Part shown: positions 4,393-40,892 of the stretch, in pieces | Layout: every line of letters begins with the position of its first letter | Numbering within the stretch: position 1 is the stretch's first letter | Origin: Dactylosporangium sp. AC04546 | GTDB taxonomy: Bacteria > Actinomycetota > Actinomycetes > Mycobacteriales > Micromonosporaceae | Reading direction: 5' to 3' | Assembly: GCF_022095675.1 (NCBI RefSeq) | Contig: NZ_JAHYSG010000097.1 | Coordinates: 1-47,333, forward strand | DNA length: 47,333 nucleotides | Translations under genes and position numbers: made by a program | Notes under the pieces: model-generated | Database searches by the model: none | What the model was told of the DNA's origin: nothing | Seen by the model: the letters and a program-made list of their open reading frames with translations, nothing else

Positions 4393-4635
4393 GACGACCC
4401 CCTTTCCTTACGGATCACGGGGCATCTAACCCGAATTCAGCGGAACTAACCCGCTCCGTACGTTTCACGGATTTCGTGAGCCGCCGCGGCGGCGTTTTCA
4501 GGGTCCGGGGAGTGCGGCGGTGGCGCTGCAGACGCCGGCCGCCGCACCCGAGATTCGCGTGGGAGCCGCGAGAACGGGTCGGCATCACCTCCAGGGATCG
4601 ACGGGTGCGGTGACCATAGCCATCGACGGGCCTTC
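4393..4635. other. Intergenic region upstream of the cellulase, distal part
   Basis: Non-coding space between the divergent SPW and cellulase genes. The part next to the SPW gene must hold its promoter, but I see no convincing -35/-10 pair there. Apart from a short GC-rich inverted repeat around GCCGCCGCGGCGGC near 4481-4494 (a possible hairpin), nothing else was recognised. The proximal cellulase promoter is listed separately. Confidence 0.5.
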
Positions 4636-4664
4636 TTGTCCCGGGAGCGCTCCCATGCCAGAAT
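4636..4664 (+). promoter_or_regulatory. Cellulase promoter with CelR/CebR-type operator in its spacer
   Basis: The palindrome CGGGAGCGCTCCCA (4642-4655) differs at one base from TGGGAGCGCTCCCA, the known operator of the LacI-family repressors CelR (Thermobifida) and CebR (Streptomyces), which release DNA on binding cellobiose or cello-oligosaccharides. It fills the 17-bp spacer between a -35-like TTGTCC (4636-4641) and a -10-like CAGAAT (4659-4664), each 4/6 to consensus. A bound repressor would block polymerase directly. The predicted start near 4671 leaves a leader of about 115 nt. The repressor gene is not in this window. Confidence 0.85.
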
Positions 4665-4700
4665 CGTCGCCACCTCGCGTCTGGGAGCCGACGAGGCACT

Positions 4701-4739
4701 GGCAGCAATGGCCTTGCGTACCAAGCCATTGGCACTGCC
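4701..4739 (+). promoter_or_regulatory. Hairpin in the cellulase mRNA leader
   Basis: An interrupted inverted repeat between the predicted transcription start and the ribosome site: GGCAG (4701-4705) pairs with CTGCC (4735-4739), CAATGG (4706-4711) with CCATTG (4726-4731), and CTTG (4713-4716) with CAAG (4722-4725), around a 5-nt loop, with a one-base and a three-base bulge. Fifteen pairs in 39 nt is notable, and its lower GC content than the surroundings argues against simple base-composition noise. Role unknown: mRNA stability or translation control is possible. Confidence 0.45.
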
Positions 4740-4786
4740 GCACGCCCCACACCCGGTTCGAAACTTTCACGAGGAGCTGTATTTCC

Positions 4787-7711
4787 GTGAGCACCCCCAC
4801 GAGACGCCGATGGCGCGCCCTCGCCGCCGGCCTCCTGGTCGCCGGAGCGATGGTCGCGCTGCCGGCCGGCACCGCCCACGCGGCGACCGGCTGTCAGGTG
4901 ACCTACTCCGTGCGCAGCCAGTGGCCGACCGGTTTCACCGGCGACCTGGTCGTCAAGAACCTCGGCGATGCGCTGTCCAGCTGGAACGTCACCTGGACGT
5001 TCGCCGGTAACCAGCAGCTGCAGCAGAGCTGGAACGGCGACTTCACCCAGACCGGCAACCAGGTCACGATCCGCAACGCGTCCTGGAACGGCAGCCTGCC
5101 CTCGGGCGGCACGGTCAACCCCGGCTTCAACGCCGGCTACAGCGGCACCAACGTGTCGCCGACGGCGTTCGCCCTCAACGGCGTCGCGTGCACCGGGCCG
5201 AACGCCTCGCCGACGGTGAGCATCACCGCGCCGGCGGCGAACACCCGGTACACGGCACCGGCGTCGATCCCGATCACCGCCACCGCCAGCGACCCCGACG
5301 CCGGTGACTCGATCGCGAAGGTCGAGTTCTACCACGACGGCCTGCTGTTGGGCACCGACACGAGCTCCCCGTACGCCTACACGTGGACGGGTGTGCCGGC
5401 CCAGTCGGCGGCGTACAGCCTGCAGGCGAAGGCCTACGACAGCAAGGGCGCGGTCACCACGTCCACCGCCGTGCCGGTGTTCGTGGACGCCCCGACCGGC
5501 CCGGCGATCATCGCCACGCCCTCGCCGCTGACCGTCCCCGAGGGCGGCTCGACGCCGCTGTCGGTGAAGCTCAACCAGGCGCCGACGGCGAACGTGACGG
5601 TGGCCGTCGCCCGCACCGGCGACACCGACATCACGGTCTCGCCGACGTCGCTGACGTTCACCACCGCCAACTGGAACACCGCGCAGACCGTCACCGTCTC
5701 CGGCGCCCAGGACGCGGACAGCACCAACGGCACCGCGACGATCAACCTCACGGCGTCCGGCTGGACGTCCGCCGCGGTACCGGCGAACGAGAGCGATGAC
5801 GACGTGGCCGGCGGCACGTACGTGCAGCGGTTCCTGGAGCAGTACCAGAAGCTGCACAGCGCCGGGTACTTCTCGCCGGAGGGCGTGCCGTACCACGCGA
5901 TCGAGACCCTCGTCGTCGAGGCGCCCGACCACGGGCACGAGACGACGTCGGAGGCGTTCAGCTACTGGATCTGGCTGGAGGCCAACTACGGCCGGGTGAA
6001 GCAGGACTGGGCCCCGTTCAACAAGGCCTGGGACACGATGGAGAAGTACATCATCCCGACCCACGCCAACCAGACCACCGGCGGCTACAACCCGAACGAC
6101 CCGGCCGACTACGCGCCGGAGGCCGACCAGCCGAGCCTGTACCCGTCGCAGGGCGGCAAGCTGGACCCGAACGTGAAGGTCGGCGTCGACCCGCTGTACA
6201 ACGAGCTCGTCTCCACGTACGGCAACGCCGACGTCTACGGCATGCACTGGCTCGAGGACGTGGACAACGTCTACGGCTTCAGCTCGTGCACCCCGGTGGC
6301 CGGCTCGAAGGTGTCGTACATCAACACCTACCAGCGCGGTCCGCAGGAGTCGGTGTGGGAGACCGTCGCCCACCCGTCCTGCGAGAACTTCACGTACGGC
6401 CAGTCGGGCGCCGGCTACCTGCCGCTGTTCATCTCCGGCACGCCGGCGAAGCAGTGGCGCTACACCAACGCCCCGGACGCCGACGCCCGCGCGGTGCAGG
6501 CGGCCTACTGGGCGCTGCAGTGGGCGACCGAGCAGGGCAAGGCGGCCGACGTGACGGCGACCGTCGCCAAGGCCGCGAAGATGGGTGACTACCTGCGCTA
6601 CGGGATGTACGACAAGTACTTCAAGAAGCCGGGCTGCACCTCGACCTCCTGCGCGGCCGGCACCGGCAAGGACTCCGCGGCGTACCTGATGAGCTGGTAC
6701 TACGCGTGGGGCGGCGACATGGGCGGCCAGTGGGCCTTCCGCATCGGCTCCAGCCACAACCACCAGGGCTACCAGAACCCGCTCGCGGCCTGGGCCCTGG
6801 CCAACGTGTCGGCGCTCGCGCCGCGTTCGCCGTCGGCGAAGGCGGACTGGCAGACCAGCCTGGGCCGGCAGCTCGAGTTCTACCAGTGGCTGCAGTCCTC
6901 GGAGGGCGCCTTCGCGGGCGGCGCGACGAACAGCTGGGGCGGCAACTACTCGGCCCCGCCGGCCGGGACGCCGACCTTCTACGGCATGTTCTACGACTAC
7001 CAGCCCGTGTACCACGACCCGGCGTCGAACCAGTGGTTCGGCTTCCAGGCGTGGTCGGTCGAGCGGGTCGCGGAGTACTACTACGCGACCGGCGACGCCA
7101 AGGCCAAGGCGATGCTGGACAAGTGGGTGTCGTGGGCGATCGCGAACACCACCTTCACGGCGAACGGCGACTTCAAGATCCCCGACACCCTGTCGTGGAC
7201 CGGCGCGCCGAACACGTGGAACCCGTCCAGCCCGCAGGCCAACACCAACCTGCACGTCTCGGTGGTCTCCACCGGCACGGACATCGGCGTGGCCGCCGCG
7301 TACGCGCGGCTGCTGACCTTCTACGGCGCCAAGGCCAACAACACGGCGGCCAAGACGACGGCGAAGAAGCTGCTCGACGGCATCTGGCTGCACACTGACG
7401 CGCAGGGCGTCGGCATCCCGGAGACCCGCACCGACTACAACCGCTTCGACGACGTGTGGTCCTCGAGCAACCAGCAGGGCCTGTTCATCCCGCCGGGCTA
7501 CAGCGGCACGATGCCGAACGGCGACGTGATCGCCCCCGGCAAGTCGTTCCTGGACATCCGTTCCTTCTACAAGAACGACCCGAGCTGGCCGGCCGTCCAG
7601 GCCTACCTGAACGGCACCGGCCCGGCCCCGACGTTCACGTTCCACCGCTTCTGGGCCCAGTCCGACATCGCCATGGCGATGGCCGACTACGGCTTGCTGA
7701 TCGGCGCGTAA
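4787..7711 (+). CDS. Secreted GH48 cellulase (reducing-end cellobiohydrolase) with N-terminal CBM2
   Basis: A processive exocellulase releasing cellobiose from crystalline cellulose outside the cell. The GTG at 4787 follows GAGGAG (4771-4776) and gives 974 residues, beginning with a Tat/Sec-like signal (RRRWRALAAG, cleavage after AHA at 32). Then come a CBM2 cellulose-binding module (about 33-137, Cys36/Cys135 disulfide, conserved Trp residues), a bacterial Ig-like domain (about 139-233, VEFYHDG core), a Calx-beta-like domain (about 236-338, VPEGGS and SLTFTTANW), and the GH48 barrel from about 345 to the end. The GH48 motif EAPDHGHETTSEAFSYW contains Glu378 and Glu389, near the family's proposed general acid. 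Expression is probably induced by cello-oligosaccharides through the operator upstream. It stands alone, with no other cellulase gene beside it. Confidence 0.95.
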   Translation: MSTPTRRRWRALAAGLLVAGAMVALPAGTAHAATGCQVTYSVRSQWPTGFTGDLVVKNLGDALSSWNVTWTFAGNQQLQQSWNGDFTQTGNQVTIRNASWNGSLPSGGTVNPGFNAGYSGTNVSPTAFALNGVACTGPNASPTVSITAPAANTRYTAPASIPITATASDPDAGDSIAKVEFYHDGLLLGTDTSSPYAYTWTGVPAQSAAYSLQAKAYDSKGAVTTSTAVPVFVDAPTGPAIIATPSPLTVPEGGSTPLSVKLNQAPTANVTVAVARTGDTDITVSPTSLTFTTANWNTAQTVTVSGAQDADSTNGTATINLTASGWTSAAVPANESDDDVAGGTYVQRFLEQYQKLHSAGYFSPEGVPYHAIETLVVEAPDHGHETTSEAFSYWIWLEANYGRVKQDWAPFNKAWDTMEKYIIPTHANQTTGGYNPNDPADYAPEADQPSLYPSQGGKLDPNVKVGVDPLYNELVSTYGNADVYGMHWLEDVDNVYGFSSCTPVAGSKVSYINTYQRGPQESVWETVAHPSCENFTYGQSGAGYLPLFISGTPAKQWRYTNAPDADARAVQAAYWALQWATEQGKAADVTATVAKAAKMGDYLRYGMYDKYFKKPGCTSTSCAAGTGKDSAAYLMSWYYAWGGDMGGQWAFRIGSSHNHQGYQNPLAAWALANVSALAPRSPSAKADWQTSLGRQLEFYQWLQSSEGAFAGGATNSWGGNYSAPPAGTPTFYGMFYDYQPVYHDPASNQWFGFQAWSVERVAEYYYATGDAKAKAMLDKWVSWAIANTTFTANGDFKIPDTLSWTGAPNTWNPSSPQANTNLHVSVVSTGTDIGVAAAYARLLTFYGAKANNTAAKTTAKKLLDGIWLHTDAQGVGIPETRTDYNRFDDVWSSSNQQGLFIPPGYSGTMPNGDVIAPGKSFLDIRSFYKNDPSWPAVQAYLNGTGPAPTFTFHRFWAQSDIAMAMADYGLLIGA

Positions 7712-33331: not shown

Positions 33332-34483
33332 GTGCGAGTGCTGTTCACAGCGGTGCCGATCCACGGCCATCTGCTGCCCGTGCTGCCGCTGGCCGAGGCC
33401 GCCGCCGCGGCGGGCGACGAGGTCGCGGTGGCCGTGCCGGCGTCGATGGGGCACCTGGTCGATGGGCTCGCCGTGCACCCCACCGGCCCGGACGCGGCCG
33501 AGCTGCTGGCCGAGAACGACCGGCGGACCGGTGGGGCCGACATGGCGGACATGCGTGACGTGTTCCCGGTGGCGTCGTTCTTCGCGGGGACGCGGGTGGA
33601 TCTGACGTTCGACGCCGCGCTGGCCCGGGCGCGGGAGTTCGGGGCCGAGGTCATCGTCGCCGACGAGTACGACGCGGTCGGGGCGATGGTGGCCGCCGCG
33701 CTCGGGGTGCCGCTGGTGCGGCACGCGGTGGGGCTGCCGGTGTCGCCGCCGGCGCTGGGGCCGGCGATGGAGGACCTGCTGACGCCGCGGTACGCCGAGC
33801 GCCGCCTGGCCAGGGCCGGGCGCTTCGCCCTGGTGGACCCGTGGCCGGCCGCGTTGCACGGGCCGCGCTGGTCGCCGCCGGCCGACCGGCTGCCGGTCCA
33901 GCCCCGGGCCTACGCCGGGACGGCGCCGGCCGAGCTGCCGTCGTTCGGCGGCCCGCCGCGGCGCGCACGGGTGCTCGTCACGCTGGGGACCGTGCTGCTG
34001 GACGCGGCGATGCTCGACGCGCTCGTGGACTCGGTGGCGGCGCTCGACGACGTGGACGTGCTCGCGAACGTCGCGCCGGGCACCGCCCGCACGCTCGCGG
34101 ACACCCGGCCGAACGTCCGCTTCGTGGGCTTCGTGCCCATCGCGCAGCTCCTCGCCGCCGGCGTCTCGGTGGTCGTCGCCGCGGGCGGCGCCGGGACCGT
34201 GCTGGCCGCCCTGGGCCGCGGCATCCCGATGGTGCTGTGGCCCAAGGGCGCGGAGAAGCCGATGAACGCCGAGCGGGTCGCCGCGGCCGGGGCCGGCATC
34301 GTCGTCGACGAGCCGGCGCGGGCGGCCGACGCGGTCCGCGAGATCCTGCACGACGCGTCGTACCGCGCCGGCGCCGAGCGCGTCGCCGAGCAGCTCCGCG
34401 CCGCGCCCCACCCGGCCCGGGTCTGGTCCGCGCTGCGCGAACGGCTGCGAACCAGCGCCGCCGCCACGGTCACGGGCAGCTGA
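33332..34483 (+). CDS. GT1-family glycosyltransferase (UGT/MGT-like)
   Basis: A 383-residue GT-B glycosyltransferase of the macrolide/antibiotic type, transferring a nucleotide-activated sugar to a small-molecule acceptor. The N-terminal VPIHGHLLPVLPLAEAA loop contains the likely catalytic His, and the C-terminal donor site has VVVAAGGAGTVLAALGRGIP followed by PKGAEKPMNAERV. The GTG at 33332 is chosen at the start of the typical N-terminal strand RVLFTAVPIHGH. The 3' end overlaps the convergent SARP regulator by 14 nt. It may decorate the product of the neighbouring ligase-methyltransferase cassette, but this is only proximity. Confidence 0.92.
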   Translation: MRVLFTAVPIHGHLLPVLPLAEAAAAAGDEVAVAVPASMGHLVDGLAVHPTGPDAAELLAENDRRTGGADMADMRDVFPVASFFAGTRVDLTFDAALARAREFGAEVIVADEYDAVGAMVAAALGVPLVRHAVGLPVSPPALGPAMEDLLTPRYAERRLARAGRFALVDPWPAALHGPRWSPPADRLPVQPRAYAGTAPAELPSFGGPPRRARVLVTLGTVLLDAAMLDALVDSVAALDDVDVLANVAPGTARTLADTRPNVRFVGFVPIAQLLAAGVSVVVAAGGAGTVLAALGRGIPMVLWPKGAEKPMNAERVAAAGAGIVVDEPARAADAVREILHDASYRAGAERVAEQLRAAPHPARVWSALRERLRTSAAATVTGS

Positions 34484-37400
34484 ACGCGGCCCGCGCCCGG
34501 TCCAGGTGCGCGGCGCGGTCCAGCCCCAGCGGCGAGCGCCGGCCTTCGGCGAGGTGCCGGGCCAGCTCGTGATGGGCGCGGGCCAGCTCGTACGGCATCC
34601 GCCGGCGCTCCGCCTCGCGGACCGCCCGCACCCACACGCGCGTCGCGGCCCGCCGGCGGCCGGCCAGCCAGCGGGCCCGGCCGAGGCAGACGAGGGCGCG
34701 CGGGCGGGCCATGGGGAAGGCGCGGGCGTAGCGGCGCAGCCGCCGCAGGGCGCCCGCCGCGGTCGCCCGGACGCCGGCCGGGTCGGGCCCGCCCTCGGCG
34801 GCGGGCTGTTCGAGCAGCGCGAGGCAGACCTCGACGACGCCGGCGTGGGCCTCCAGGGCGTACTGCGCGAACGACGGGCGCGGGCCCACCAGCCGGTCCG
34901 CCGCGACGGCCGCCTGCCAGGCCTCCGCCCGGCGGCCGGCGGCGAGGTGCACCCGGGCGGCGGCGACCCGGTAGCGGGCGGCGTCGACGCCGGCCGTGTC
35001 CGGCAGGAGCCCGGCGGCGGCCCGCAGGTGCTCCGGCAGCGCCGGGTCGGCGGGGTCGGCGCGGACCGCCGTCTCGATGAGCAGCAGCAGGCCCCAGAGC
35101 TGCACGACCACGTCCTGGCGGTCGCGCCCGGAGGCCAGGCCCTCGGCGGCCGCGGCGACCGTCTCCGGGTCGCGGGCGGTGAGGTACCGGGCCGCCGCCG
35201 CGATGAGCAGCACCTCGTCGGCCCACCGGTGCAGCGGCGTGCGGTCGCGCAGCGCCAGCGCCCGGGCCGCGCCGGCCTCCACGTCGGCCCACGCGCCGAC
35301 GCCGGTCCAGTACAGCCCGCCGACGATGCCGACCCAGCAGGTGGTGAGCGGGTCCCCGGCCCGGTCGGCCGCGGCGCGGGCGGCGCGCAGCTGGCGGCGG
35401 GCGAGCGGGTGCAGCCCGCCGACGCCGAGCAGCATCCCCAGGCCGGCCCGGGCGCGGGCGGTGAGGTCGGGGTCGCCGGCGCGCTCGGCCTCGTCGAGCG
35501 CGCCCAGCGCCGCCGGCAGCATCGGGAGCCGCTCGCCGAGGACCCAGTAGGCCTCGATGATCGTGAAGTACGCCGCCGCCCGCTCACGGACCTCGTCGCG
35601 CCGCTCCCCGCGGAGTGCGGCGCGGCCCGGCAGCAGCCGCCGGCCCACCCGGGCGGCCAGCGTGGCCAGGCGGCCGGCGGTCGTCCGCGGGGCCCGGCTG
35701 CCCAGCCGCTCCAGGGCCCGCTCCAGGTGGTGCCGGGCCGCCCCGGCCTCCCCGAGCTGCTGGTGGGCCTCGCCGAGGACGCGCTCCCAGCGGGCCCGGA
35801 GCAGGGCCGGTGTGCCCGGGCGGTCCACCGCGGCGGCGAAGCACGCCCGGACCTCGCGGAACCAGCCCATCCGGCCGTACAGCGCCCACACCAGGCCGAG
35901 GTGGGCGTCGAGTGTCGCCGGGTCGGCCGTGCGGACCAGCAGCTCGGTCGCCGCGCGCAGGTTCTCCGCGTCGGCCTCCGGCCACGACTCGCCCCCGGCG
36001 GCGAGCAGCGCGGCGTAGTGCCGTGCGTGGCGCCGCAGCGTCTCCGCCTCCTCCTCCGGGTCGGCGGCGAGGCGCTCGGCGGCGTACTGGCGCAGCAGCT
36101 CGTGCAGCTCGTAACGGCCGTCGTCGCCCACGGCGACCAGCGACTGGTCGACCAGCCCGGCCAGCACCGCCAGCCCGGCGCCGGCCACCGCCTCGGCGGC
36201 GGCCAGGTCGAAGCCGCGCCGCAGCACGGAGAACCGGCGCAGGGCGCCGGCCTCCTCGTCGGTCAGCAACCGGCAGGACCAGTCGATCACCGTGCGCATG
36301 CTGCGGTGCCGCGGCTCCACGTCGGACGCGGTGGTCGCGAGCAGGTCGAGGCCGGCGGCGAGCCGGTCGGCGATCGCGGCCGGGCCGGCCGAGCGCATCC
36401 ACCGGGCGGCGAGCTCGATCGCCAGCGGCATCCCCGCCACCAGCCGGCACAGGCGGCCGGCGGCCTCGGTCGCCTCGGCGGTCGTCAGGCCCGGGCGCAG
36501 GAGCCGGGCCCGCTCGACGAAGAGCCGTACCGCGTCGTAGCCGGCCGCGTCGGCGCCCGGCGGCGGGCAGGCCAGGCCCCGCACCTCGACGAGCCACTCG
36601 GCGCCGAGGCCGAGCTGCCGCCGCGAGGTGGCCAGCACCGTCACGCCGGGCGCCCGGCGCAGCAGCTCGACGAGCACGCCGCCCGCGCCGCGCAGGTGCT
36701 CGAGGTTGTCGAGGACCAGCAGCAGCTCCCGGTCGGCGAGATGGCCGGCGAGGACGTCGAGCGGGTCGCGCGGGACCGCGAGCGACAGGCCGAACGCGCG
36801 GGCGAGGTCGGTGACCACGAGATCACCGGCCCGGTCGGCGCCGGCCGGGCCGGTGCCGGCGAACGACACGAACACCGCCCCGTCGCGGTGCCGGTCCGGG
36901 CGCTGCGCGGCGGCCTCCACCGCCAGCCGGGTCTTGCCGACCCCGCCGGGCCCGACGAGTGTGACGAGCCGGCAGGCCGGGTCGGCCAGCAGCTCCCGCA
37001 GTCGGCGCAGCTCCTCGTCCCGCCCGATGAGCGTCGTGAGCGGCCGCGGCAGGTCGGGAACCCCAGCGGTGCCGGCGGTGAACGACGCCGCGCCGGCGAT
37101 CTCGTCGCGCAGCGCGGCGGTCGCGGCCGACGGCTCGGCCCCGACCTCCTCGCGCAGCAGGTATCGGCAGGTGTCGTACTGGGCGAGCGCGGCGCTGCGC
37201 CGGCCGTCCAGCGCCAGGAACCACATCAGCGCGCGGTGCGCCTCCTCGTCCAGCGGGCCCAGCTCCAGCATGCGCCGGGCGACCTCGACCCCGCCGGCCG
37301 CGTCGCCGCCGTCGCGGGCACGGCGCACCGCGCGGTCCATGACGGCGAGCATGTCCGCCCGGGCGGCCGCGCGCCGCCCGGCCACCCACTCGTCGAAGAC

Positions 37401-37808
37401 CGGCGCCCCCGGCACCTCGAAGCCGTCGAGGAACTCGCCGCGGCACAGCCGGACGGCCGTCAGCAGCTCGCCGTCGTCGGCGCTCGCGGCGACGCGGGCC
37501 ACCTCGAGGGCGTCGACCCAGATCGGCGGGCCGTCCGGCGCCACCGTCTGCCGGCTGATCCGCAGGCGGCCCGGCACGACCCGGCGCAGCTTCGTGAGCA
37601 CCAGCCGGAGGTTGGCCCGCGCGGCCGGCTCCGGCAGGTCACTCCACAGCAGCCCGGCCAGCGCGGTGCGGGGGTGCGCGGTGCCGGTCACGGCGAGGAA
37701 GCACAGCAGTGCGGCCGCCTTGACGGACGCCAGCTCCGCGAGCGGGCGCCCGTCGACGGTCAGCTCGGCCCGGCCGAGCACGCGGATCCGGAGCTGCTTG
37801 TCGATCAT
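34470..37808 (-). CDS. AfsR-like SARP transcriptional regulator with NB-ARC and TPR domains
   Basis: A 1112-residue activator of the AfsR class. The N-terminal OmpR-type winged helix (about 1-95, LRIRVLGRAELTVDGRPLAE and LRLVLTKLRRVVPG) is followed by a BTAD domain (about 96-240, CRGEFLDGFEVPGAPVFDEW and DTCRYLLREEVG), then an NB-ARC ATPase with Walker A LVGPGGVGKTRLAVEA (Lys292), Walker B ELLLVLDNLEHL and VTVLATSRRQLGL, and a long C-terminal TPR-like helical region from about 620. It is divergent from the acyl-CoA ligase, and the 94-bp gap holds direct repeats of SARP type, so it probably activates that operon. The ATG at 37808 is at the domain start; the longer frame is spurious. Confidence 0.93.
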   Translation of the reverse strand: MIDKQLRIRVLGRAELTVDGRPLAELASVKAAALLCFLAVTGTAHPRTALAGLLWSDLPEPAARANLRLVLTKLRRVVPGRLRISRQTVAPDGPPIWVDALEVARVAASADDGELLTAVRLCRGEFLDGFEVPGAPVFDEWVAGRRAAARADMLAVMDRAVRRARDGGDAAGGVEVARRMLELGPLDEEAHRALMWFLALDGRRSAALAQYDTCRYLLREEVGAEPSAATAALRDEIAGAASFTAGTAGVPDLPRPLTTLIGRDEELRRLRELLADPACRLVTLVGPGGVGKTRLAVEAAAQRPDRHRDGAVFVSFAGTGPAGADRAGDLVVTDLARAFGLSLAVPRDPLDVLAGHLADRELLLVLDNLEHLRGAGGVLVELLRRAPGVTVLATSRRQLGLGAEWLVEVRGLACPPPGADAAGYDAVRLFVERARLLRPGLTTAEATEAAGRLCRLVAGMPLAIELAARWMRSAGPAAIADRLAAGLDLLATTASDVEPRHRSMRTVIDWSCRLLTDEEAGALRRFSVLRRGFDLAAAEAVAGAGLAVLAGLVDQSLVAVGDDGRYELHELLRQYAAERLAADPEEEAETLRRHARHYAALLAAGGESWPEADAENLRAATELLVRTADPATLDAHLGLVWALYGRMGWFREVRACFAAAVDRPGTPALLRARWERVLGEAHQQLGEAGAARHHLERALERLGSRAPRTTAGRLATLAARVGRRLLPGRAALRGERRDEVRERAAAYFTIIEAYWVLGERLPMLPAALGALDEAERAGDPDLTARARAGLGMLLGVGGLHPLARRQLRAARAAADRAGDPLTTCWVGIVGGLYWTGVGAWADVEAGAARALALRDRTPLHRWADEVLLIAAAARYLTARDPETVAAAAEGLASGRDRQDVVVQLWGLLLLIETAVRADPADPALPEHLRAAAGLLPDTAGVDAARYRVAAARVHLAAGRRAEAWQAAVAADRLVGPRPSFAQYALEAHAGVVEVCLALLEQPAAEGGPDPAGVRATAAGALRRLRRYARAFPMARPRALVCLGRARWLAGRRRAATRVWVRAVREAERRRMPYELARAHHELARHLAEGRRSPLGLDRAAHLDRARAAFSCP

Positions 37809-37849
37809 CGCCACCACCGTCGTCCAGCCGACCCTACCCGCACGACGAC

Positions 37850-37896
37850 CCGCACACGATCGGGAAACGATCCGCACACGGTGGGCCGGCACGATC
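37850..37896 (+). promoter_or_regulatory. Putative SARP binding repeats and leaderless ligase promoter
   Basis: CCGCACACG occurs at 37850-37858 and 37872-37880, exactly 22 bp apart, and ACGATC at 37856-37861 and 37867-37872, 11 bp apart. SARP activators bind direct repeats at 11/22-bp spacing about 8 bp upstream of a -10 box. Here a -10-like CACGAT (37890-37895) follows after 9 bp, and the ligase ATG at 37903 is 7 nt further on, so a leaderless message is predicted. Confidence 0.65.
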
Positions 37897-37902
37897 CGGG
37901 GC

Positions 37903-39555
37903 ATGACCGTCACCGATCCCTTCCGTAGCCCCCTGCCCGACGTGCCGGTCGGCGGGACCACCGTGCCGGCGTACGTGCTGCGGCACGCCGAACGCCTCGG
38001 CGACAAGCCGGCCCTCATCGACGGCCCGACCGGCCGGGCGATCAGCTACCGCGAGCTCGCGGCCGGCGTCGAGCGGGTCGCGGCCGGCCTGGCCGCCCGC
38101 GGGTTCGCGCCCGGGGACGTGCTGGCCGTGTACTGCCCCAACCGTCCCGAGTACGCCCTCGCCGCCTACGGGGCGATGGCCGCCGGCGGCGCGGTCACCG
38201 GCGCGCACCCCCAGCTCACCGCGGACGAGCTGGCCGGGCAGCTCACCGACGCCCGGGCCCGGCTGCTGGTCACCGTGCCCGCGCTGCTGGAGCGGGCCCT
38301 GGCCGCCGCCGCCCGCGCCGGCGTCGCCGAGGTGCTCGTCATCGACGGCGACGGCACCGCGGGCGGCACGCCGTTCGACGCGCTGACCGGCCACGGCCAC
38401 CCGTCGGTGCCGGACGGCGCGGTGGCCGCCCTGCCGTACTCCAGCGGCACCACCGGACTGCCCAAGGGCGTCGAGCTCACGCACGCGGCGCTGGTCACCA
38501 ACGCCCGGCAGGCGCAGGCGGTGCTGGGATTCGCCGCCGGCGACGTGGTCCTGGCGGCGGCGCCGTTCTGCCACGTCATCGGCATGAACCTGCTCCTGCC
38601 GTGCGGGCTGGCGGCCGGGGCGACCGTCGTCACCCTCCCCGCGTTCGACCTCGAGGACTTCCTGCGGGCGATCCAGGCGTACCGGGCGACCGTGACGATC
38701 GTGGTCCCGCCCGTCGCGCGGGCCCTCGCCCACCACCCGGCCGTCGACCGCTACGACCTGTCGTCGCTGCGCCGCCTCGGCGTCGGCGCCGCCCCGCTCG
38801 ACCCCGAAACCGAACAGCGCTGTGCCGAGCGGCTCGGCTGCGCGACCAGCCAGGGCCTGGGCCTGACCGAGGCCGGGGCGCTGGTCGCCGTCGGCCCGCT
38901 CGACGCGCCGCGGCGCGGGTCGGCGGGCCGGCTGGTGCCGAACACCGAGGCGCGCATCGTCGACCCGGGGACCGGCGCCGACCTCGGCACCGGCCGGACC
39001 GGCGAGCTGTGGGTGCGCGGCCCTCAGCTGATGCGGGGGTACCGCCGGCAGCCGGACGCGACCGCCGCCACCCTCGACGCCGACGGCTGGCTGCACACCG
39101 GCGACCTGTGCTCGTTCGACGAGGACGGCTACCTCTGGGTCACCGACCGGCTCAAGGACGTCGTCAAGTCCGGCGGCTACCAGGTGGCGCCGGCCGAGCT
39201 GGAGCGGATCCTGCTGCTGCACCCGGCGGTCGCCGACGCCGCCGTGGTGGCCCGGCCGGACCCGGTCGCCGGTGAGGTGCCGGTGGCGCATGTCGTCCTG
39301 CGCGGCCCGGCGACGGCCGCCGAGCTGCTGGCGTACGTGGCGGAGCGGGTCGCGCCGTTCAAGCGGCTCGCCGCGGTCCGCGTCACCGGGTCGGTCCCGC
39401 GCTCGCCGACCGGCAAGCTGCTGCGGCGCGTGCTCGCCGCGGCCGAGCGAGCCGACGCCGACCAAGCCGACGCCGGGGCCGACCGGGCCGGGGCCGACGC
39501 CGAGCGGGCCGGGGCCGACGCCGAGCGGGCCGACGCCGGGGCGGGCGCATCGTGA
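37903..39555 (+). CDS. AMP-dependent acyl-CoA ligase (4-coumarate-CoA ligase-like)
   Basis: A 550-residue ANL-superfamily enzyme activating a carboxylic acid with ATP to an acyl-AMP and then thioester. Motifs are the P-loop LPYSSGTTGLPKGVELTH, the A5-type TSQGLGLTEAGAL, HTGDLCSFDEDGYLWVTDR with the hinge, LKDVVKSGGYQVAPAELE and the catalytic Lys of SPTGKLLRR. The acid is unknown; the acyl pocket (APFCHVIGMNLLLPCGLAAG) resembles plant-type 4CL and fatty-acid ligases. The C-terminus is extended by a 30-residue Ala/Asp/Glu/Arg tail made of tandem repeats. It overlaps the methyltransferase by GTGA, and is probably switched on by the divergent SARP regulator. Confidence 0.93.
   Translation: MTVTDPFRSPLPDVPVGGTTVPAYVLRHAERLGDKPALIDGPTGRAISYRELAAGVERVAAGLAARGFAPGDVLAVYCPNRPEYALAAYGAMAAGGAVTGAHPQLTADELAGQLTDARARLLVTVPALLERALAAAARAGVAEVLVIDGDGTAGGTPFDALTGHGHPSVPDGAVAALPYSSGTTGLPKGVELTHAALVTNARQAQAVLGFAAGDVVLAAAPFCHVIGMNLLLPCGLAAGATVVTLPAFDLEDFLRAIQAYRATVTIVVPPVARALAHHPAVDRYDLSSLRRLGVGAAPLDPETEQRCAERLGCATSQGLGLTEAGALVAVGPLDAPRRGSAGRLVPNTEARIVDPGTGADLGTGRTGELWVRGPQLMRGYRRQPDATAATLDADGWLHTGDLCSFDEDGYLWVTDRLKDVVKSGGYQVAPAELERILLLHPAVADAAVVARPDPVAGEVPVAHVVLRGPATAAELLAYVAERVAPFKRLAAVRVTGSVPRSPTGKLLRRVLAAAERADADQADAGADRAGADAERAGADAERADAGAGAS
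39451..39531 (+). repeat. 21-bp tandem repeats encoding the ligase C-terminal tail
   Basis: Two identical 21-bp copies (39490-39510 and 39511-39531, encoding GADAERA) are preceded by degenerate copies from about 39451 (EADADQADAGADRA-like). The tail lies beyond the conserved ligase fold. Confidence 0.85.
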
Positions 39556-40892
39556 CCGCGCTGACCGCCCGGCGGGCGAGCGGGCGGAGCCGGCGGCTGC
39601 GCGAGTGGCTCGTCACCGCCGCCGCCACCGCGGCGTCGGTGTACGCGCTGGACGTCACGGCGACCGCCGCCGGGGTCGCGCTGGTCGCCGCCGGCTGGCT
39701 CGGCGGCATCGGCCACGGGTGGGCGGTGGCGTTCCTGGCCGTGACCTACCTGGCCTGGGGCGCCGGCCTGCGGGTCGCGCTGCGGGCCAACCGGCTGCTG
39801 CTGGAGACGACGGGGACGAGCACCAACGCCCTGTCGAAGGCCGCGTACGACCTGGCCCGGCGGCTGACCGGCCGGGCCCGCCCGGCCCGCCTCGCCGCGG
39901 CCGGCGGCTACACGGCCACGGAGATCGTCAAGGAGCTGCCGTACTACGCGGGCGCGTTCGGGGTCGCGGCGCTGAGCGACACCGTCGGCGGGGTCGACGC
40001 GCTGGTCTTCCTCGGCGGCGCGAACCTGGGTGCGGCGCTGTACGAGCTCGGGCTGGCCCGCCTGGTGCGGGCCGTCGTGCGGCGCCGGCGGCGGTACGCG
40101 TCGTTCGACACGGACTGGGTGCCCGCCGAGTACCTGGCCGGCTACTACAGCACCGTCGAGCCGGACGAGGTCGCCACGATCGCGTTCCTCGTCGAGGCGC
40201 TGCGCCGGGCCGAGCCCGGGCGGCCGGTGCTGTTCTTCGGCGTCGGACCCACCCTGCACCACGTCTTCGCGGCGGCCGGGGTCGCCTCCGAGATCCACCT
40301 CGGCGACTACCTGCCGGCGAACCTCGCGGAGATCCGCCGGTGGATCGAGCGGGAGCCCGGCGCGCACGACTGGCGGCCGTTCGTCCGCCACACGCTGCGG
40401 TGCGAGGGCAACGCCGAGCCGAGCGACGACGACGTGGCCGCCCGCGAGGACCTCACCCGGGCGCGGATCACGGCCCTGATCCGGGTCGACGCCCGCGACC
40501 CGCGGCCGGTCGACCGGTGCTACGCCACGGTGGTCAGCGCCTACTGCGCCGACTCCGCCACCGGTGACCGGGCGACCTGGGAGCGGTACATGCGCCACAT
40601 CACCGGACTGGTCGGGCCGGGCGGCCTGTTCGTCACCGCGGCGCTGCGCCGCTGCCGCGGTTACACCGTCGGCGGCAGGAGGTTCCCGAGCGCGTACGTC
40701 GACGAGCACGACGTCCGCACGGCGCTGCGTCACGGCTTCGACCCGCACGCCGGCGCGGTCGAGGTCCATCCGGTACCCCAAGTCGCCACCCACGGCTACG
40801 CGGGGATCGTGCTGGCCTGGGCCCGCCGGAGCGGGCCGGGCGCGCGCGGTCGCACGGCCCGGCCCGCGGTGCACGGCGTCAGCTCACCGTGA
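39552..40892 (+). CDS. NNMT/PNMT/TEMT-family methyltransferase with N-terminal membrane domain
   Basis: A 446-residue fusion. The first 170 residues are hydrophobic, with about four predicted helices ([79 protein letters not shown]). The rest (about 185-435) is a SAM-dependent methyltransferase of the nicotinamide/phenylethanolamine N-methyltransferase family: [37 protein letters not shown] (motif I), [34 protein letters not shown] and [19 protein letters not shown]. The GTG start overlaps the ligase stop. Such enzymes usually methylate amines; a membrane anchor would suit a lipid-like substrate prepared by the ligase (inference). Ends 14 nt inside the convergent protease gene. Confidence 0.85.

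Follow-up and report, generated by a model that had tools for sequence, protein, structure and literature searches.

A large AfsR-like SARP very probably controls a single promoter in the window (by which we mean the whole 47,333-nucleotide stretch of Dactylosporangium sp. AC04546 that was analysed), and this promoter would drive a two-gene operon composed of an acyl ligase and a methyltransferase with an N-terminal membrane domain. The initial annotation had described a SARP divergent from a translationally coupled ligase and NNMT-like methyltransferase, and the three genes were confirmed with small coordinate corrections. The features are, in window positions:

34470 to 37808, minus strand: SARP, a large AfsR-like regulator of 1112 aa from its ATG (MIDKQ...), with a BTAD match.
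37836 to 37895, plus strand: ligase promoter with an 11-bp direct-repeat array, a heptamer box and a -10-like hexamer, from repeat and cross-genome comparison.
37903 to 39555, plus strand: ANL-type, 4CL-like acyl ligase of 550 aa, ATG start, with PF00501 and PF13193.
39552 to 40892, plus strand: methyltransferase with an N-terminal membrane domain, GTG start, PF01234.
39552 to 40091, plus strand: the N-terminal membrane domain (residues 1-180), four long helices predicted, with no Pfam family at E 0.001.
40101 to 40739, plus strand: NNMT/PNMT/TEMT-type methyltransferase domain (residues 184-396), PF01234.

The SARP contains a BTAD domain (PF03704, 60.7 bits, Pfam cut-off 22.1) and the Walker A motif GPGGVGKT can be read in its sequence, while its AAA_16 match (30.9 bits) is just below the Pfam cut-off of 32.6. 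Neither an OmpR-type N-terminal DNA-binding domain nor a C-terminal TPR was reported by Pfam at E 0.001 in the 1112-aa protein. Its sole PDB match at E <= 0.001 is AfsR (8k60), which is weak (phmmer, E 8e-6, residues 6-600). A longer mechanical reading frame, with its end at 38018, was rejected because it runs into the ligase gene. The alignment of the D. siamense SARP (L045:7511-11188) is broken between residues 99 and 118 into two pieces, which lie 267 nt apart where ~54 nt are expected.

The divergent SARP and ligase genes are separated by 94 bp. The heptamer box in this region (37852-37882) reads ACACGAT-N4-AAACGAT-N4-ACACGGT and is followed after 7 nt by the -10-like hexamer CACGAT (37890-37895), which lies 7 nt ahead of the ligase ATG. 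In all six ligase promoters three heptamers recur every 11 bp and are followed after 7-8 bp by a -10-like hexamer; this hexamer is TACnnT in the other five, whereas that of the window begins with C and not T. The ATG stands at the same 7 nt past the hexamer in D. sucinum and G148, which suggests that the ligase mRNA is leaderless. In PMC10936776 the SARP rule is given as repeats 11 or 22 bp apart with the last one 8 bp from the -10, and the spacing of the ligase box is consistent with it.

The 11-bp array was also reported independently by Tandem Repeats Finder (37836-37880), and among lags 8-24 lag 11 was the highest in all six promoter regions. The number of shuffles, of 2000, that reached the lag-11 score was 5 for the window, 0 for D. 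sucinum, 15 for D. siamense, 41 for G148, 20 for D. aurantiacum and 71 for G102. The best lag-11 triple of the window, like that of G102, begins one repeat upstream of the box. When the flanks were aligned with gaps, the box (65-97% identity) was the better conserved in 13 of 15 pairs against the 40 bp upstream, and likewise in 13 of 15 against the 20 bp downstream. The exceptions are G148 against D. aurantiacum and against G102 for the upstream flank, and D. sucinum against G148 and G148 against G102 for the downstream flank.

A genome-wide pattern search in the six genomes gave one exact box match in each, always at the ligase, and no match with one mismatch; with two mismatches there were 10 matches, versus 9 for the reversed-pattern control. 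The matrix built from the six boxes scores them at 39.9-50.8, with no other place above 14 in the 2.36 million positions of the loci scanned. Because pattern and matrix were both derived from the same six sites that they recover, these tests speak for the uniqueness of the box and not for its discovery. One regulator with one target promoter, as initially proposed, is supported since a SARP-type site precedes every one of the six ligases and each genome has a single exact match. We can suggest that the SARP binds and activates this promoter.

Orthologues of the ligase (E <= 1e-160, identity of at least 71%) and of the SARP (residues 1-500 as the query, E <= 1e-80) were found in the same six of 354 family genomes, where the best four candidates per genome were scored and those passing these cut-offs were counted. 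These are G000, G095, G044 and G081, together with G148 and G102 of genus g30; of the seven genomes in genus g1, four carry the pair and the remaining three carry neither gene. An identical set would have a probability of 3.8e-13 if genomes were independent, but six genomes from two genera are not. The presence of both orthologues in the same six genomes indicates that the association exceeds chance. The membrane-domain gene directly follows the ligase in all six, and in five the SARP is divergent and adjoins the ligase. In the sixth, G102, the SARP (66% identity over residues 1-1109) is ~240 kb off, although the box is retained. SARP, ligase and membrane protein thus form a conserved unit in two genera, and conservation across genera had been named beforehand as support for a system. 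The contrary case, in which the ligase-methyltransferase pair occurs mostly without the SARP, was not seen, as the SARP adjoins five of the six ligases and is present in every one of the six genomes.

In G181 a membrane-domain gene lies between the same two flanking genes as in G148 (87-89% identity), and neither SARP nor ligase is present between them, so at this locus the SARP-ligase pair is either there or missing as a unit. The source genome is 13.0 Mb in size with a contamination reading of 11.5%; despite this, the gene arrangement is real, since the D. sucinum locus retains 8 of the 9 genes tested at 85-95% identity. The neighbouring GT1 glycosyltransferase had been considered as a possible extension of the cassette. 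This was not supported, as among the loci compared it is found only in the window and in D. sucinum, and D. sucinum is just one of the four further loci in which SARP and ligase are linked. The absence of a polyketide synthase or NRPS nearby held for the 18 window proteins given to Pfam, none of which contains an assembly-line domain. Elsewhere the window encodes a glycosyl hydrolase family 48 cellulase with CBM2 (4520-7711, 978 bits) as well as ABC-transporter and PEP-utilising (PTS-like) genes.

The ligase matches PF00501 (AMP-binding, 308.6 bits) and PF13193 (AMP-binding_C, 64.8 bits), both over the Pfam cut-off. Its closest PDB relative is the plant 4-coumarate:CoA ligase 3a9u, with which it shares the full-length ANL architecture (residues 7-511 aligned). 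The two differ in the pocket, where the FHIYALNS of 3a9u is replaced by CHVIGMNL in the alignment; the tyrosine that reads the para-hydroxyl in 4CL is presumably gone. This change makes a nonpolar carboxylic acid more probable as the substrate of the ligase. The ligase stop and the methyltransferase start share the 4-bp overlap GTGA. The ligase of the window has an Ala/Asp-rich C-terminal tail encoded by a 21-bp tandem repeat (39442-39546). In D. sucinum this tail is missing or very short and the methyltransferase starts ~15 bp past the aligned ligase end.

The methyltransferase matches PF01234 at residues 184-396 (128.9 bits, Pfam cut-off 25), and PNMT, INMT and NNMT are the best PDB matches of this domain by both sequence and fold. 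Foldseek gave E 4.1e-13 to PNMT, with a full-length model whose pLDDT is only 61. D334 aligns with PNMT position 185, and the acid is invariant in 26 of 26 rows. Based on these matches and on D334, the methyltransferase is predicted to be active, and it would work at the membrane. The NCBIfam GntF model NF041360 also matches (71.9 bits, cut-off 60), at residues 197-396 only; we did not adopt this identity because the extra membrane domain argues for another role. The animal enzymes and GntF thus resemble the methyltransferase in PF01234, in fold and in the acid at PNMT position 185, whereas the PDB chains of PNMT, INMT and NNMT have 250-294 residues and the window protein has a four-helix membrane domain besides.

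This membrane domain, when modelled alone, shows four long helices and one short helix (pLDDT 86.6). The first ~180 residues have no Pfam (E 0.001) or NCBIfam match, and no fold match offers a transport or enzyme function. In the family- and phylum-genome searches the domain was found only in genomes of the family. Ten polar residues (D34, N80, T87, S90, N92, S95, K96, E128, N158 and E165) do not vary in any of the 32 rows, which points to the domain doing more than anchoring. The mean pairwise identity of the methyltransferase domain (0.748, 26 rows) is higher than that of the membrane domain (0.647, 32 rows), and this argues that the methyltransferase domain matters.

The membrane domain is more widespread than the ligase. 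It is present in 32 of 354 family genomes (in G142 only as a 52-residue fragment), and 26 of these 32 are without the ligase. With the full-length profile two of 396 phylum genomes match, the source genome itself and G560, where the match is confined to the methyltransferase part. The 32 near-complete copies come from 31 genomes; 26 have the methyltransferase and six lack it, two of the latter standing in the operon slot, after the ligase in G148 and after a flavin monooxygenase in G223. The stand-alone genes are L040, L041, L042, L061, L062 and L100, with L041 and L100 in the slot of the fusion. The G148 operon, with SARP, ligase and a membrane domain without methyltransferase, indicates that methylation is not obligatory, and a cassette centred on the methyltransferase is not well supported. 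Nor is the cassette self-contained, as first thought: most copies of the membrane domain come without the ligase, and many lie under a different promoter motif and next to other enzymes. The domain may perhaps be the common element of these operons.

Six of the 32 copies neighbour the ligase, 11 a STAND-like ATPase (STAND2; AAA_16, 36.1 bits in Pfam) and 15 neither. STAND2 was found in 22 of 165 sampled genomes and an FAD-dependent monooxygenase in 16, often adjacent to each other; the membrane domain is present in 13 of the 16 monooxygenase genomes (one a fragment) versus 32 of 354 overall. In the four g1 genomes that carry the SARP cassette STAND2 was not found; it does occur in G102, at a large distance from the ligase operon of that genome. 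One locus, L048:8554-12417, matches Virgisporangium aurantiacum; here the membrane-methyltransferase is flanked by a pyruvoyl-dependent arginine decarboxylase-like gene (PF01862, 86.7 bits) on one side and a second methyltransferase on the other, and an NAD-dependent epimerase is encoded upstream.

Ten loci beside STAND2 (L044, L046, L052, L056-L060, L100 and L048, taken from STAND2 to the next gene) have in common a 41-bp promoter motif (TTGGACAGCGATTAACAACTATCTGACCTGGAAAGTGAGCG-like), which precedes a flavin monooxygenase, an epimerase or a membrane-methyltransferase. The matrix of these loci found ten further sites when overlapping loci were counted once, seven before membrane-domain genes (one being the G142 fragment) and three before the monooxygenase; elsewhere in the scanned loci no site exceeded the matrix threshold. 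Counted by copy, the motif is directly upstream of 12 of the 32, upstream of the preceding gene or genes of four, and missing in 16, namely the six ligase-linked copies and ten others. A stricter pattern gave six sites in five genomes genome-wide (control 0), of which five lie at the loci already known. The remaining site is in G075, where it comes after a further STAND2 copy and precedes a gene that is FAD-binding by its N-terminus only (L141). This stricter pattern found no site in G102, which has both STAND2 and the monooxygenase. The 41-bp motif possibly marks a second regulon.

From these data the following mechanism can be suggested. The large SARP would be switched via its ATPase region, bind the three repeats, spaced at 11 bp, that lie shortly before a weak -10, and bring the polymerase to one promoter, from which the translationally coupled ligase and methyltransferase pair would be driven. 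The ligase would then activate a nonpolar carboxylic acid, aryl or medium-chain, while the four-helix domain would tether the SAM methyltransferase domain, which would act on an amine or heteroatom, to the membrane and probably also bind or move the lipophilic product. A methylated acyl metabolite, small and membrane-associated, would result, either a signal or a protective compound. The regulatory half, one SARP acting on one promoter, we regard with high confidence; the chemistry is tentative, with its chances below even, and towards the explanation as a whole we lean slightly.

One alternative is that the membrane domain is the working core, as a transporter, receptor or membrane enzyme, and that the enzymes and even the methyltransferase domain are exchangeable accessories under different STAND-type regulators. 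The six copies without methyltransferase (two in the operon slot), the ten invariant polar residues and the two distinct promoter types fit this option, but the higher conservation of the methyltransferase domain and the lack of a transport or enzyme function among the fold matches do not, and we hold it possible but doubtful. Another option is a dispersed pathway, in which the ligase-methyltransferase pair only tailors a product of genes elsewhere in the genome. The ligase yields only an activated acid, a condensing enzyme was not seen among the 18 window proteins scanned and the SARP is already unlinked in G102; yet with one exact SARP site per genome the partner genes must lie outside the regulon, and this option appears rather unlikely. 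An island for conflict or defence that combines a STAND switch with variable effectors would explain STAND-like regulators with swapped neighbour enzymes, but is highly improbable: the neighbour genes appear metabolic, and a PADLOC scan of six proteins gave a single short match, in the flavin monooxygenase (22.8 bits, residues 5-35), and none for the SARP, ligase, methyltransferase, STAND protein or membrane domain. That the genes are functionally unlinked chance neighbours, as the many other neighbours of the membrane methyltransferase in Actinoplanes-like genomes might imply, is scarcely credible given that SARP and ligase share one set of genomes and that the box is kept even when the SARP is unlinked.

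The proposed SARP-controlled operon belongs to a kind already known, here in a minimal form of two genes. As described in PMC10936776 and PMC10972967, the AfsR-afsS system of Streptomyces similarly has a large SARP with an ATPase region, 11-bp repeats near the -10 and an adjacent target. The AfsR target is a small regulator and AfsR binds other promoters too, whereas the target here is a two-enzyme operon. Unlike AfsR-afsS, the box consists of three or more ACACGAT-type repeats and has no other exact or one-mismatch site in the six genomes. The cluster-situated SARPs named in PMC10972967 (RslR3, PolY and others) likewise lie beside their presumed target genes, but in our case no PKS or NRPS was found near (18 window proteins) and the predicted regulon has two genes.

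The more novel element appears to be the undescribed membrane-methyltransferase family, whose membrane part lacks a Pfam or NCBIfam match. It is conceivable, if rather doubtful, that the membrane domain represents a new functional membrane protein family of Micromonosporaceae and not an anchor, a common terminal stage for different activating enzymes that has moved between SARP and ligase on one side and STAND ATPase, flavin monooxygenase and its own 41-bp promoter on the other. If true, it would be a portable membrane methylation or export module that yields minimal metabolites outside any classical cluster. The fusion, with its invariant polar residues and two promoter types, makes regulatory rewiring directly testable, and a large SARP with a single predicted promoter and a box kept at ~240 kb separation is a small, clean test case for SARP logic.

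SARPs are usually taken as flags of large antibiotic clusters. Without a PKS or NRPS, the operon would probably escape standard cluster mining. Certain soil actinobacteria appear to devote an antibiotic-type regulator to one two-gene promoter, and relatives pair the same membrane protein with a different regulator and enzyme.
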